Shown: piece by piece, positions 30,807 to 35,933 of the stretch
Layout: each line of letters begins with the position of its first letter
Position numbering within the stretch: the stretch's first letter is position 1
Assembly: GCA_019187365.1 (NCBI GenBank)
Contig: JABARE010000016.1
Span: 186,001 to 250,000, forward strand
Length of the DNA stretch: 64,000 nucleotides
Source of the DNA: Saprospiraceae bacterium
GTDB taxonomy: Bacteria > Bacteroidota > Bacteroidia > Chitinophagales > Saprospiraceae
Direction: 5' to 3'
Made by a program: the position numbers and the translations under genes
Notes under the pieces: model-generated
Seen by the model: only the letters and a program-made list of their open reading frames with translations
Told to the model about the DNA's origin: nothing
Databases searched by the model: none

Positions 30807-30908
30807 TTCTCTGCAAATTTATTGAATTTTACCGCTACAGCGACTTACATCCCAGGGGGATGCCCGGGTTCGGTCAATTTAACGGGGTTCCTCGAATAAC
30901 CCAGTTTT

Positions 30909-31072
30909 GATGCCAGAATGAAAAGGGCTGCCTCTCTTCACTCCCTGTTGATGCCAGAATGAAAAGGGATGCCTCTTTTCACTCCCTGTTGATGCCAGAA
31001 GGAAAAGGGCTGCCTCCCTTCACTCCCTGTTGATGCCAGAAGGAAAAGGGCTGCCTCCCTTCACTCCCTGTT
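30909..31072. repeat. Four tandem 41-bp units (left arms)
   Basis: Units start at 30909, 30950, 30991 and 31032, each GATGCCAGAA followed by an arm of the form GGGCTGCCTCYCTTCACTCC. A fifth GATGCCAGAA at 31073 opens the first core. Each arm is the reverse complement of the 22-base segment that follows each of cores 1 to 4. Confidence 0.9.
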
Positions 31073-31090
31073 GATGCCAGAAGGAATTTA

Positions 31091-31803
31091 GCAAAACAAG
31101 ACGAGGCGCGGTGAAGGAAGCTATGTGGAGCAATACCTGACTGAACCGCAACGAAGGATTGTGAAGCTAAATTCATTTCGCGCGCAAGCCAATGCGGGCT
31201 GGCTGGCGCAAGAGGGAGTGAAGAGAGGCAGCCCCCAAGCAAAACAAGACGAGGCGCGGTGAAGGAAGCTATGTGAGCAATACCTGACTGAACCGCAACG
31301 AAGGATTGTGAAGCTAAATTCATTTCGCGCGCAAGCCAATGCGGGCTGGCTGGCGCAAGAGGGAGTGAAGAGAGGCAGCCCCCAAGCAAAACAAGACGAG
31401 GCGCGGTGAAGGAAGCTATGTGGAGCAATAACTGACTGAACCGCAACGAAGGATTGTGAAGCTAAATTCATTTCGCGCGCAAGCCAATGCGGGCTGGCTG
31501 GCGCAAGAGGGAGTGAAGAGAGGCAGCCCCCAAGCAAAACAAGACGAGGCGTGGTGAAGGAAGCTATGTGGAGCAATACCTGACTGAACCGCAACGAAGT
31601 ATTGTGAAGCTAAATTCATTTCGCGCATTAGCCTGTGCGGGCTGGCTGGCGCAAGAGGGAGTGAAGAGAGGCAGCCCCCAAGCAAAACAAGACGAGGCGC
31701 GGTGAAGGAAGCTATGTGGAGCAATAACTGACTGAACCGCAACGAAGTATTGTGAAGCTAAATTCATTTCGCGCATTAGCCTGTGCGGGCTGGCTGGCGC
31801 AAT
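31091..31803. repeat. Five tandem 148-bp core units
   Basis: Starts at about 31091, 31239, 31386, 31534 and 31682 (period 148, one unit 147). Units differ at a few bases (ACCTGACTG or AACTGACTG; CGAAGGATT or CGAAGTATT), so they have diverged slightly since amplification. The period is not a multiple of three, which argues against coding. Confidence 0.92.
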
Positions 31804-31944
31804 AGTGGGTTATTAGAGGTGCCCAAAAGCTTTAGAAGGTATCTTTCCATTAGGCAACATCCCGAGACACAAAGTGGAGCATTCAGGCAACTGTTCGTTC
31901 GAATAAATTAAAGGTCGGTTCATAATTGCTAATTTCGCAAAGGA

Positions 31945-33363
31945 ATGTTACGCGATAACATGCATCCGATTTACATCTCCCACGCCTGGGGTGGGGATAG
32001 CGATATCATCGTAGAGCAATTGGTGCGCAGGCTGGAACAGGAAAAGCTGCCTTATATCCTGGATACCAGGGATCTCAACTACAAACAAAGCATAAAACAC
32101 TTTATGCTGCAATTGGGTAAAGCGGATTCTGTAATTCTGGTCATCTCAAATAAGTACCTCAGGTCGGAGTTCTGCATGTTTGAGCTGATCCAGATCTACA
32201 AAAATGAAAACCTCCAGGACCGAATTTTTCCCATCGTGCTGGAAGAAGTGAAGATTTCAAAATCTTCCGACAGGCTGGAATTTGTAAAATACTGGGAGGA
32301 CCAACTGGCAGAATTGCATTCAAAGCTCCGGGAATTGAACTCGCTGAGTTACCTGGACGGGATCACGGAAGACCTGAACCTGTATACTGAGATCCGGAAT
32401 AACATTGCCAAACTGACAGGAATACTCCGGGATATCAACACCTTGAACATACGGATCCACAAGGAGTCTGATTTTATGCCCCTGATCGGGGCCATTCGGC
32501 AACGAATGGGTATATCGCCATCTGAGGCACAACAAACGCAGGTGACTGGCGGGCAGCAACCCGCTCGACGGAGAGTCAGTTCATTTTACTACCTGCTCGC
32601 TCTGGTGATATTTGCTTTGGGACTTTGGGCTTGGTTCATCGTTTCGCGGACCGGGTCAACTCCAGAGACTGTTAGGATGGAGCAGGCGGATTCCAGTCTC
32701 TCAATTGTTCAACAAGTGAACCCGCATGAGCTTGATTCTGAATCACTGAGCAAGCTGTCTTCTGACACGGTAGTGCAAGAAACCAAGCCCCTGCGATCCA
32801 CACAATTGGCTACTGGGCAGAAGCCTGAAAGCGGGTCAGGGAAATTGACCGGAAATACGACTCCAAATTATGAGAAGGCAGGACCAATGGTTGTTCAAGA
32901 TGCTTTTGCCAAGCCTGCAGCAAATGAGCAGAATGCAAAGCCTTTGACGGATGGCAACCAACCCGGGCCAATGCATGTTCGGCGTGAAGCTCTAACGGCT
33001 CATATTCCAAAAGGGACCATACTCTTCGTCCAAAGCCGGGAACATCTTAGCAGTGAGGACGATGCTGTAGCACCCCGAATCGTGCGTTTTGCTCTCTCGG
33101 AACCGTTGGTGTTGGGCCAGAAAAGGCTATTGCCAGTCGGAACCCCGGTGCAGGCTGTCATCAAATCGGTACGCTCCAGCCAGTTCAAGCGAACGGGTTC
33201 GATCGAACTGGTCTTTTCCTTTGTCGAAGGTCCTGATGGACAGCGAATACCCTTGGAATCAAACGATCTTCAGCTCGTCGGCGAGCGGGACCAACCCATG
33301 GATATTTCCATTGGGCGAACCATCCGGATCAAGACTTCTAAATCTTTTGATTTAAAATATTAA
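31945..33363 (+). CDS. Membrane-anchored TIR-domain protein
   Basis: 472 residues from ATG 31945; ATG 31960 is an alternative. The TIR domain covers ~6-155 (HPIYISHAW..., DTRDLNYKQSI, SVILVISNKYLRSEFCMFEL). Glu80 in SEFCMFEL sits where NADase TIR domains carry their catalytic Glu. A single membrane helix follows (~212-234, FYYLLALVIFALGLWAWFIV). After a low-complexity Ser/Pro/Thr/Gln linker comes a C-terminal beta domain (~352-472: IPKGTILFV...LLPVGTPVQAVI...PDGQRIPL), which resembles VirB10-like or other periplasmic beta modules. The topology suggests a cytosolic TIR and a periplasmic sensor domain. First gene of a three-gene unit (gap 3 bases to the next). Possible -7 box TAATTTCG at 31930. 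Confidence 0.87.
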   Translation: MLRDNMHPIYISHAWGGDSDIIVEQLVRRLEQEKLPYILDTRDLNYKQSIKHFMLQLGKADSVILVISNKYLRSEFCMFELIQIYKNENLQDRIFPIVLEEVKISKSSDRLEFVKYWEDQLAELHSKLRELNSLSYLDGITEDLNLYTEIRNNIAKLTGILRDINTLNIRIHKESDFMPLIGAIRQRMGISPSEAQQTQVTGGQQPARRRVSSFYYLLALVIFALGLWAWFIVSRTGSTPETVRMEQADSSLSIVQQVNPHELDSESLSKLSSDTVVQETKPLRSTQLATGQKPESGSGKLTGNTTPNYEKAGPMVVQDAFAKPAANEQNAKPLTDGNQPGPMHVRREALTAHIPKGTILFVQSREHLSSEDDAVAPRIVRFALSEPLVLGQKRLLPVGTPVQAVIKSVRSSQFKRTGSIELVFSFVEGPDGQRIPLESNDLQLVGERDQPMDISIGRTIRIKTSKSFDLKY

Positions 33364-33366
33364 TCC

Positions 33367-33984
33367 ATGAAAGTGGCCACTGTTTCTGTATTATTCGCAT
33401 TACTGATTCTTGGTCAGGCAGGACTTTCTCAGGACTATCTGACAAACCGATCGCAGACGAAGGGCTTATCGGGGGCTGTAACGATGGGCTATTTGTCTTA
33501 TACAAGTGACAAACTCCACCAGGAGGCACAAGGCGGGTGGGGTTTTGGTTTGAATCTCGAATATGGCCTGACCCATCGACTTGCTTTTGACCTGAGTTTT
33601 CAGCGCTTTTCAGTAAATTCGGGAAGCAGTCTGGTTGAAAACAGCCCATACCCCTTTTATGAATTGGAACTGGCTGGAAAATTTTATTTTGCAGGAAGTG
33701 ACCAGCGGTTGAGGCCTTATTTAGGGTTTGGTGTCAACTATTCACGTCAAAATGAAGAATTTTATGATGAGCTAGACAATTATAACGATGTGGTTTACAA
33801 CGGATTCGCAGTCCTGGGAAGGGGCGGGGTCGGGTTTTATCCATCCGAGAATTGGCGCATTGAGGGTGACTTTTGTTTTGACATTGGAAGCTTCTCCAAC
33901 ATCCTCATCAATCGCGATCCGGTAGAAGACAGCTATTCATTTTATGCCTGGAAAACCCGAATGGGAATTCGGTATTTTTTTTGA
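33367..33984 (+). CDS. Small outer-membrane beta-barrel protein of the TIR/patatin unit
   Basis: 205 residues. Signal peptide (MKVATVSVLFALLILGQAGLSQ), then eight to ten amphipathic strands with turns rich in Gly, Asn and Asp, ending in the aromatic strand MGIRYFF typical of OmpA/OmpW-like barrels. It starts 3 bases after the TIR gene and ends 6 bases before the patatin gene, so co-transcription is nearly certain. Outer-membrane barrels are unusual companions of TIR and patatin effectors. It could be a surface receptor, a pore or a target marker, all of which are inference. Confidence 0.85.
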   Translation: MKVATVSVLFALLILGQAGLSQDYLTNRSQTKGLSGAVTMGYLSYTSDKLHQEAQGGWGFGLNLEYGLTHRLAFDLSFQRFSVNSGSSLVENSPYPFYELELAGKFYFAGSDQRLRPYLGFGVNYSRQNEEFYDELDNYNDVVYNGFAVLGRGGVGFYPSENWRIEGDFCFDIGSFSNILINRDPVEDSYSFYAWKTRMGIRYFF

Positions 33985-33990
33985 TACACT

Positions 33991-35382
33991 ATGACCATGC
34001 TGGTAGAGAGATTAAGACGGGCGGGCCCCAAGAGGCTCTTATCGCTAGACGGAGGTGGCATCCGGGGTGTTGTTACACTGGGATACCTTGAGCGCATTGA
34101 ACAACTGCTCGGTGAAAAACATGGCGATCCCAATTTTCGGCTTGCTGATTATTTTGATCTGATCGGTGGTACGAGCACTGGTTCCATCATTGCTTCGGGC
34201 CTGGCCATTGGCTTGAGGGCTGCTGAAATCAAGGATCGGTATTTCGCACTGGGCGGCAAAATATTTGGCCAGAAGAAGGGTTTCCTCAACTACCTCACTA
34301 AGGGATATAAATACGACAGCAAGCCCCTGGAATATGCGCTTCGCGATTTTTTTGGCGACATCGCACTCGGTGACCAGGAAAGGATCAGGACCGGGCTCTG
34401 CATCTTTACCAAACGAGCGGAGACCTTTAGCACTTGGGCCCTGTTCAACCATCCGGACGGCATGTTCTATTCGCAAAACCGGGACTGGCCGCTGTGGCAG
34501 ATCATCATGGCCAGCGCAGCCGCGCCGACGTATTTCATTCCCGTTTTTTTAGAAGATAATGCGGGCGACAGGGGAGCCTTCATCGACGGTGGGATCAGTA
34601 TGGTAAACAACCCTTCCTTCAGGTTATTCCTGTTGGCCTGCCTTCAATCGTATCCATTTCATTGGGTGCCCGGAAAGGACAACCTGTTGTTGGTGTCGGT
34701 AGGAACCGGCAAATCGGACCAACGCACCAGCAACGAAGTGCTGAAAAAGAAGTCGCTTCTGGGTTGGGCTGCCGCCATGCCAGAGTATTTTATGTATGAT
34801 GCCAACCAGATGAATCAAATGATCATGCAATTGCTCAGTGAATCACCAACGGCAAGGGTCATCGACAGCGAATTGGGAAATCTCGAAAAGGAAAAGTACC
34901 TGAACTTTGAAGCCCTGTCTTACTTGCGTTACGACATTCAGTTTTCTGCAAAGGAACTTGGCGCCCTTGGAATTGAACTTTCGAAAGCGAAGCTGGAAGC
35001 ACTAGGAGCCATGGACAATCCCGACAACATGGAAATTCTTGCCTCCATTGGTGCTAAGGCTGCAGAAAGCGCTGTTCTCGCAGATCATTTCTCCGATACA
35101 TTCCATGTAAACCAGTCCACACACAAAATCACACTCTTTGAAACCGGTAAGAGCTATCCTCTTCCATTTCAATTTTATGTTAAGCGTGAAATACCGATTG
35201 AGGCGTGTGAAATAGGACATCCATTTTATGTAATGACCATGGAGGGCCTGATGCACGCCAAGGCTGGCGACTACCTCGTTCGTGGCATTCATGGCGAATA
35301 CTATGCCTGCGACCGGGAGATCTTTTACAAAACCTATTCAGCAGTTGAACGACCTGGGGGTGGAGGCTCAAGTGCATCGTAG
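33991..35382 (+). CDS. Patatin-like phospholipase with extra C-terminal domain
   Basis: 463 residues. The patatin core is complete: the oxyanion loop DGGGIRG (20-26), nucleophile Ser62 in GTSTG (60-64) and catalytic Asp199 in DGG. Patatins cut acyl chains from membrane lipids, and relatives (CapV) are effectors of CBASS immunity. Residues ~389-452 form an added module (FYVMTMEGLMHAKAGDYLVRG, then GEYYACDREIFYKTY). This is strongly like the GDY(I/L)(V/I)KGxxGEFYPCKPDIFExTYE motif that I recall from small phage and prophage proteins. A Gly/Ser tail ends the protein. Third gene of the TIR unit. Its last 49 bases overlap the convergent two-TM gene. Confidence 0.9.
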   Translation: MTMLVERLRRAGPKRLLSLDGGGIRGVVTLGYLERIEQLLGEKHGDPNFRLADYFDLIGGTSTGSIIASGLAIGLRAAEIKDRYFALGGKIFGQKKGFLNYLTKGYKYDSKPLEYALRDFFGDIALGDQERIRTGLCIFTKRAETFSTWALFNHPDGMFYSQNRDWPLWQIIMASAAAPTYFIPVFLEDNAGDRGAFIDGGISMVNNPSFRLFLLACLQSYPFHWVPGKDNLLLVSVGTGKSDQRTSNEVLKKKSLLGWAAAMPEYFMYDANQMNQMIMQLLSESPTARVIDSELGNLEKEKYLNFEALSYLRYDIQFSAKELGALGIELSKAKLEALGAMDNPDNMEILASIGAKAAESAVLADHFSDTFHVNQSTHKITLFETGKSYPLPFQFYVKREIPIEACEIGHPFYVMTMEGLMHAKAGDYLVRGIHGEYYACDREIFYKTYSAVERPGGGGSSAS

Positions 35383-35933
35383 ATTGTAGGTGCGGAGCGG
35401 TCAAATTCGCTCAGGAAAGTCTTGCGGATGACTTTCCAGTTATTGCGTATATCCTGGGCTGCGGCTGACCAAGCATCCTCATTCCGGGCAGCCGGGGGCA
35501 ATTTCAGGACAATATCGTAAATGCTTTTTAGTGACTCAAAAGGGTAAGAACCCAGGTGTTTGTGGCTCTCTCCGATGTTGGTGTAAACTCCTCTGACTTC
35601 GTCGATGACCTTGGACAATGCAAGCAGGCATTTGTAATATTCCTCTTCAGACCGGGTCGGCTTTTCGGTATAGATCGTCGCAAGACTGACGGCGTGAATC
35701 ATATTGCTCCACAATTGCCTCAATGCATTGGTGAAACTCGAACGTCGCTGAAAACAAAAGCCAAGATAGGCGATCGGGACTGCTAACATGACCGGGATGA
35801 GGTCCTTGAATAGCAGGTAATGGCTGGTCTGCATCCGAATGTCTATGGTCTTCAGCAAAAGTCCCAGCAGGATCACTGTAGCATAAAATGCCGTGATGAG
35901 GGAGATGTTGAAAATGAGCTTCTTTTTCGTCAT
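35334..35933 (-). CDS. Two-transmembrane protein overlapping the patatin gene
   Basis: 199 residues. Two membrane helices at about 8-30 and 42-62 are followed by a helical cytoplasmic part (LRQLWSNMIHAVSLATIYTEK...YYKCLLALSKVIDEVRGVYTNIGE) and a Pro-rich end. The build resembles SLATT-type two-helix effectors of bacterial conflict systems, but I see no diagnostic motif, so this is only a shape match. It is convergent with the patatin gene and overlaps its coding end by 49 bases, so the transcripts are antisense to each other there. Confidence 0.65.
   Translation of the reverse strand: MTKKKLIFNISLITAFYATVILLGLLLKTIDIRMQTSHYLLFKDLIPVMLAVPIAYLGFCFQRRSSFTNALRQLWSNMIHAVSLATIYTEKPTRSEEEYYKCLLALSKVIDEVRGVYTNIGESHKHLGSYPFESLKSIYDIVLKLPPAARNEDAWSAAAQDIRNNWKVIRKTFLSEFDRSAPTIYDALEPPPPGRSTAE

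Follow-up and report, generated by a model that had tools for sequence, protein, structure and literature searches.

The TIR immune proteins known from bacteria are regarded as cytosolic. In Thoeris, TIR proteins serve as possible makers of an NAD-derived signal and are encoded beside a separate effector of the SIR2-SLOG or TM-macro type, and in CBASS with the CapV effector a CD-NTase is coupled to a patatin-like phospholipase. Toll-like receptors are single-pass proteins with an external sensor built from LRRs and a cytosolic TIR domain. Two further protein families bear on the locus described here. Hanks-type (PknB-like) kinases have a cytosolic N-terminal signalling domain, one transmembrane segment and a C-terminal extracytoplasmic sensor, which in classical PknB consists of PASTA domains. 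VirB10, a protein of type IV secretion, has a short cytosolic tail, a single N-terminal transmembrane segment, a long flexible linker that spans the periplasm, and a periplasmic beta domain near the outer membrane. In the open-access literature that we searched, membrane TIR receptors of the kind reported below, TIR proteins combined with a patatin, and kinase receptors with a VirB10-like domain were not described. The nearest paper (eLife 52696) deals with TIR and 2-TM SLATT conflict systems and does not mention the periplasm, the outer membrane, or VirB10.

The window, a stretch of 64,000 nucleotides, contains a cassette of four genes, the first of which is a TIR receptor ORF whose source is a member of the Saprospiraceae. 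The features of the cassette are as follows:

31945..33363, plus strand: TIR receptor gene, ATG start, 472 aa, without an in-frame stop
31969..32298, plus strand: TIR domain, residues 9-118 (Pfam TIR_2; Foldseek TIR matches), with a helical extension to residue ~190
32182-32184, plus strand: putative catalytic Glu80, assigned by motif (SEFCMFE, within the TIR domain)
32584..32649, plus strand: single transmembrane helix, residues 214-235 (hydropathy, AlphaFold2)
32653..32982, plus strand: disordered linker, residues 237-346 (~110 residues; pLDDT mostly below 40)
32992..33360, plus strand: predicted VirB10-like C-terminal beta domain, residues about 350-472 (AlphaFold2, Foldseek)
33367..33984, plus strand: outer-membrane beta-barrel partner, OMP_b-brl/OmpW-like (Pfam OMP_b-brl 1e-7)
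33991..35382, plus strand: patatin-like phospholipase (Pfam Patatin 1.2e-29)
35334..35933, minus strand: convergent gene for a two-TM protein, found in cassettes of the window's genus only

The TIR assignment is well supported, with Pfam TIR_2 matching at E = 8e-14 and 52.6 bits against a curated cut-off of 28. A full-length model of the receptor, from an AlphaFold2 run on a five-sequence alignment, has an alpha/beta N-terminal domain (pLDDT moderate, about 45-80), and its first Foldseek matches are TIR domains. Glu80 is kept in 9/9 cassettes and, by its motif, corresponds to the putative catalytic glutamate with which TIR NADases act. The N terminus shows no evident signal peptide. Kyte-Doolittle hydropathy has a single strong peak (2.27 at residues 216-234, with the next segment at 1.04), and in the AlphaFold2 model the helix at 214-235 stands apart from both the N- and C-terminal domains. 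Burial of the helix in a soluble fold, which the initial annotation of this DNA had named as an outcome that would refute its reading, was therefore not seen. The architecture of TIR domain, transmembrane helix, and beta domain is kept in orthologues at 76% and at 38-40% overall identity and is present in 9 of 398 family genomes, so this layout is more than a chance arrangement. Pfam, hydropathy, and AlphaFold2 thus bear out the N-terminal TIR domain, single helix, and beta-rich C terminus that the initial annotation had read from the letters. The order of a TIR domain before a single helix, which it called unusual, is not confined to this protein and recurs in the family with other C-terminal domains (L059, L060, L066, L072).

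Modelled alone with AlphaFold2, the C-terminal domain has 11 strands (pLDDT 84.7, pTM 0.74) and no helix of four or more residues; the full-length model places it at residues 351-471. The initial annotation had proposed comparing a predicted structure of this region with VirB10/TrbI, and in a Foldseek search of the PDB the top 18 matches were all VirB10-type C-terminal domains, among them TrwE, pKM101 TraF, CagY, ComB10, and Xanthomonas VirB10 (probability 1.00, best E 8.6e-4, query TM ~0.6 for most). Rank 19 was the Dot/Icm dome and later ranks were unconvincing. The likeness is visible by fold comparison only, because PDB sequences searched with a profile of the beta domain gave nothing significant. 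In Pfam, the domain did not pass the cut-off of PF03743 (TrbI): TrbI scored just 0.14, in 1 of 14 beta-domain members, and TraM scored 0.036 in a single member. The layout of the receptor is also that of VirB10, with a single transmembrane segment, a long linker, and a beta domain predicted to be periplasmic. It differs in having a TIR domain where VirB10 has its short cytosolic tail, a model of 133 residues compared with about 190-200 in VirB10, and no counterpart in the model to the helical antenna of the VirB10 barrel. Because the modelled domain is smaller and lacks the antenna helix, and because the whole genome gave no match to the TrbI family, the domain is best described as VirB10-like in fold, and not as a VirB10.

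The fold raises the question of whether the receptor is a remnant of conjugation or type IV secretion, a VirB10 homologue that gained a TIR domain and would function in transferring DNA or protein. The VirB10 fold, the VirB10-like trans-envelope layout, and the weak single-member TrbI and TraM scores could be read in this way. We regard such an origin as barely credible, because the genome has no PF03743 match, no type IV secretion genes adjoin the cassette (in the window, L014, or L022), the model has no helical antenna pair, and the same beta domain also serves kinase receptors and stand-alone exported proteins. A type IV secretion function was accordingly rejected and only the resemblance in fold was kept.

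Four observations bear on which side of the membrane the beta domain occupies. First, an ARRR stretch flanks the helix on its N-terminal side, as it would if the receptor N terminus were cytosolic, since by the positive-inside rule the basic flank of a helix marks the cytosolic side; the N side of the helix is basic in most homologues. Second, stand-alone homologues of the beta domain have N termini that, judged by eye, resemble signal peptides (L094, L097, L098, L159, L160). Third, in many Bacteroidota the beta domain ends Hanks-type kinases with one transmembrane segment between, which would place it across the membrane from the kinase, because the kinase must be cytosolic. Fourth, the neighbouring gene encodes an outer-membrane barrel. 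On these grounds the receptor is probably a single-pass protein with its N terminus inside and its C terminus outside, and with the beta domain in the periplasm. The converse arrangement, a cytosolic beta domain with a helix that merely tethers the TIR protein to the membrane, draws on the receptor topology being a prediction and on C-side charges that are not zero in all homologues, but it is highly improbable in light of the exported homologues, the kinase fusions, the barrel, and the basic N sides. The suggestion in the initial annotation that the C-terminal domain faces the periplasm is therefore supported, as a predicted topology, by the homologues with signal-peptide-like N termini and the kinase fusions, and the cytosolic placement that it had named as the contrary outcome was not seen.

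The barrel gene begins 3 nt after the TIR gene and encodes a protein with a signal-peptide-like N terminus and a C-terminal YFF. At the level of the phylum, a search with the beta domain gave matches in 13 of 395 genomes, and within the family it gave matches in 43 of 348. Outside the TIR cassettes, the N-terminal partner in long beta-domain proteins is a kinase, with the beta domain following a kinase and transmembrane segment in L067-L071, L088-L096, and L148-L161 (Pkinase E about 1e-60). These Bacteroidota Hanks kinases resemble the TIR receptor in their order of cytosolic N-terminal signalling domain, one transmembrane segment, and C-terminal extracytoplasmic sensor, and homology to the TIR locus extends to the sensor domain and to the barrel encoded downstream. 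In the cassette, by comparison, a TIR domain replaces the kinase, a patatin is added, and there are no PP2C or FHA partners.

A barrel gene lies directly downstream and on the same strand in 28 of 33 membrane-bound beta-domain proteins, with gaps of -86 to 107 nt. The divergence of the beta domain is correlated with that of the barrel (r 0.91), and the correlation persists after correction for kinase distance (partial r 0.67, permutation p 0.0002); matched divergence is what one would expect if the two parts function jointly. Judged from these sequences, the beta domain and barrel appear to form one sensor module, found as kinase, transmembrane segment, and beta domain plus barrel across Bacteroidota. 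The initial annotation had the C-terminal domain touching either the partner barrel or phage tail structures. Gene adjacency now lends weight to the barrel, with the contact itself something we infer, while contact with phage tail structures finds no support in the present data. It is also conceivable, though unlikely, that the barrel is a separate porin that hitch-hikes in the operon, and that the beta domain binds peptidoglycan or another ligand. Five kinase proteins that have the beta domain without a neighbouring barrel (L090, L095, L155, L157, L158) would fit such an arrangement, but the adjacency extends across both kinase and TIR versions, the divergence stays matched after the kinase-distance correction, and the two parts moved together in the sensor swap described below.

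Other genes were seen around the kinase versions of the module. PP2C phosphatase genes adjoin them in L067, L068, and L071. In L068 and L071, genes for FHA-TM-trypsin-like protease proteins lie beside Hanks kinases with a VirB10-like domain and barrel. We found no description of these operon-like PP2C, FHA-protease, and Hanks-kinase envelope signalling groups (L067, L068, L071) in the open-access literature. Clusters of three to four small exported proteins, each made up mainly of the VirB10-like beta domain, occur in L159 (3114-15352) and L160 (3526-5724).

The nine TIR cassettes form two groups. Identity between the groups is 56% for the TIR domains and 55% for the patatins, but 17% for the beta domains and 22% for the barrels. 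In an unrooted tree of beta domain plus barrel (9 TIR and 18 kinase rows), the kinase receptors that surround one TIR group differ from those around the other, and a single clade of TIR sensor modules is rejected (AU p 3e-11; 2e-7 without long branches). Tested by part, the single clade is rejected with the beta domain alone (AU p 0.004) and marginally with the barrel alone (0.044). The TIR domains themselves group in a single clade with support of 99/98, and this clade takes in L059 and L060, TIR-TM proteins with other C-terminal domains. Because the TIR and patatin components are ~55% identical between the groups, with sensor halves that are only 17-22% identical and that sit among different kinase receptors, the trees, which are unrooted, indicate that the sensor module was exchanged, in one direction or the other, between TIR and kinase receptors. 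The TIR lineage, together with its patatin, has changed sensors at least once, with the beta domain and barrel moving together. Such a natural swap points to chimeric receptors as an experiment.

C-terminal domains also vary among the other TIR-TM proteins of the family, with an Lcl_C-like domain in L072 (Pfam 3e-9) and further, unassigned domains in L059, L060, and L066. The combination of TIR-TM with an outer part that can be exchanged thus recurs as a design in the Saprospiraceae lineage. In L066 (6120-8314), a different TIR-TM protein is followed by a gene resembling a different outer-membrane barrel, which suggests that the layout of receptor plus barrel arose more than once. Relatives of the window TIR domain are found at the C terminus of other proteins in the same family (L063, L064, L065, L073, L074).

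The patatin gene starts 6 nt after the barrel gene. Its product matches the PADLOC CBASS phospholipase effector at 1e-54 and scores 144.5 bits against NCBIfam CBASS_lipase, below the cut-off of 200. The nucleophile and aspartate motifs (DGGGIRG, GTSTGS, DGGIS) are intact, so that catalytic motifs are intact in both the TIR and patatin genes of the window, and the patatin has no signal peptide. No cyclic-nucleotide synthase and no SLOG or macro sensor accompanies it. The cassette resembles CBASS with CapV in the closeness of its patatin to CBASS phospholipases, but differs in having no CD-NTase and a patatin below the NCBIfam cut-off. It resembles Thoeris in pairing a TIR protein, as the possible maker of an NAD-derived signal, with a separate effector gene, but differs in having a membrane receptor with an envelope sensor and a patatin as effector. 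No ThsA-like gene was found in the cassette, and the window TIR protein has no ThsB match (one orthologue gave E 0.03). The cassette thus lies outside Thoeris and CBASS, and its TIR protein has a new layout. The resemblance to Toll-like receptors is an analogy only: the TIR receptor has the reverse order, with the TIR domain N-terminal, and an ectodomain that is VirB10-like and not LRR.

All four genes are also present in a relative at 76% identity (L013) and in a distant congener (L014), where the cassette has another chromosomal setting beside a PcrA/UvrD-type helicase gene. Six more family genomes carry the patatin, TIR receptor, and barrel genes in a different order, without the two-TM gene. 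In L062 (G629), a stop near the end of the beta domain breaks the reading frame. The site occupied in the window, between HerA and thioredoxin-like genes, is empty in the sister species G004 and G007, where these genes are 128 and 207 nt apart, and G007 has the cassette at another location. From the empty site and the relocated copy, the sequences indicate an accessory cassette whose genes are acquired or lost together. The empty site, the patatin and two-TM partners, the module shared with kinases, and the swap go beyond what the initial annotation had noted. The cassette neighbourhoods that were read contain housekeeping genes and are not defence islands. The cassette had no match in phages, and a single match in plasmids was weak and confined to TIR.

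We favour, with some reserve, a trans-envelope receptor in which the barrel and VirB10-like domain detect that the outer membrane is disturbed and activate the TIR domain, with the patatin as co-effector. The receptor would sit in the inner membrane by a single pass, with its TIR domain in the cytosol, and the helix and ~110-residue linker, whose length suffices to bridge this space as in VirB10, would carry the beta domain across the periplasm. At the outer membrane, the beta domain would pair with the small barrel from the next gene as one sensor module. The trigger would be an outer-membrane disturbance, with phage adsorption the likeliest and a toxin or envelope stress possible. A change in the complex of barrel and beta domain could then cause TIR domains to cluster or reorient and to cleave NAD+, producing a nucleotide signal or depleting NAD. 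The cytosolic patatin would be co-activated and would attack the inner membrane, so that growth stops. Such a receptor, wired to the outer membrane, would be a topological parallel of Toll-like receptors and would show a surface event being passed to a TIR enzyme.

Whether the cassette serves immunity is a narrower question. That the barrel and VirB10-like domain act as an interchangeable surface alarm, reporting phage contact to an NAD-consuming TIR domain that drives the patatin, is a tentative proposal; if true, the immune response would start from the cell surface, ahead of any read-out of phage DNA. The main rival to the immune reading is envelope homeostasis, in which TIR and patatin would adjust lipid turnover or NAD metabolism under outer-membrane stress. 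The kinase versions of the module resemble ordinary signalling, and what is sensed may therefore be envelope stress in general. The sharing of the module with Hanks kinase receptors, the PP2C and FHA-protease genes that adjoin some of them, the housekeeping neighbourhoods, and the service of patatins in lipid metabolism are all in keeping with such a role. However, the patchy presence, together with the empty sites and the relocation of one cassette, speaks more for an accessory conflict system, and the patatin is closest to CBASS effectors, so we consider homeostasis rather doubtful. Returning to the trans-envelope receptor, its shared and exchanged sensor suggests how bacteria might signal alarm from their surface, and the VirB10-like domain with its small barrel offers a defined pair for asking how Bacteroidota kinases sense the envelope.

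Two elements flank the TIR, barrel, and patatin genes. Upstream, between HerA and the TIR gene (30881-31824), the window contains composite tandem repeats, with 41-nt units followed by inverted 148-nt units. These repeats were rejected as part of the cassette, because the 148-nt unit belongs to a dispersed family, matched 186 times across many of the genome's contigs, and because in the nearest relative HerA and the TIR gene are separated by only ~195 nt. Downstream, the 3′ end of the convergent two-TM gene overlaps the patatin gene by 49 nt. The two-TM protein has no profile match, and its identification as SLATT was set aside because no profile supports it. The gene is kept in the L013 and L014 cassettes; it was rejected as an obligatory partner because it is missing from other cassettes and stands alone elsewhere. 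A two-TM homologue in L026 adjoins a GDSL-like lipase gene, and the protein may accompany lipid hydrolases. In L025 (1647-4005 and 8203-8829), a homologue lies a few genes downstream of genes that, by eye, resemble nicotinamide phosphoribosyltransferase and PRPP synthetase.
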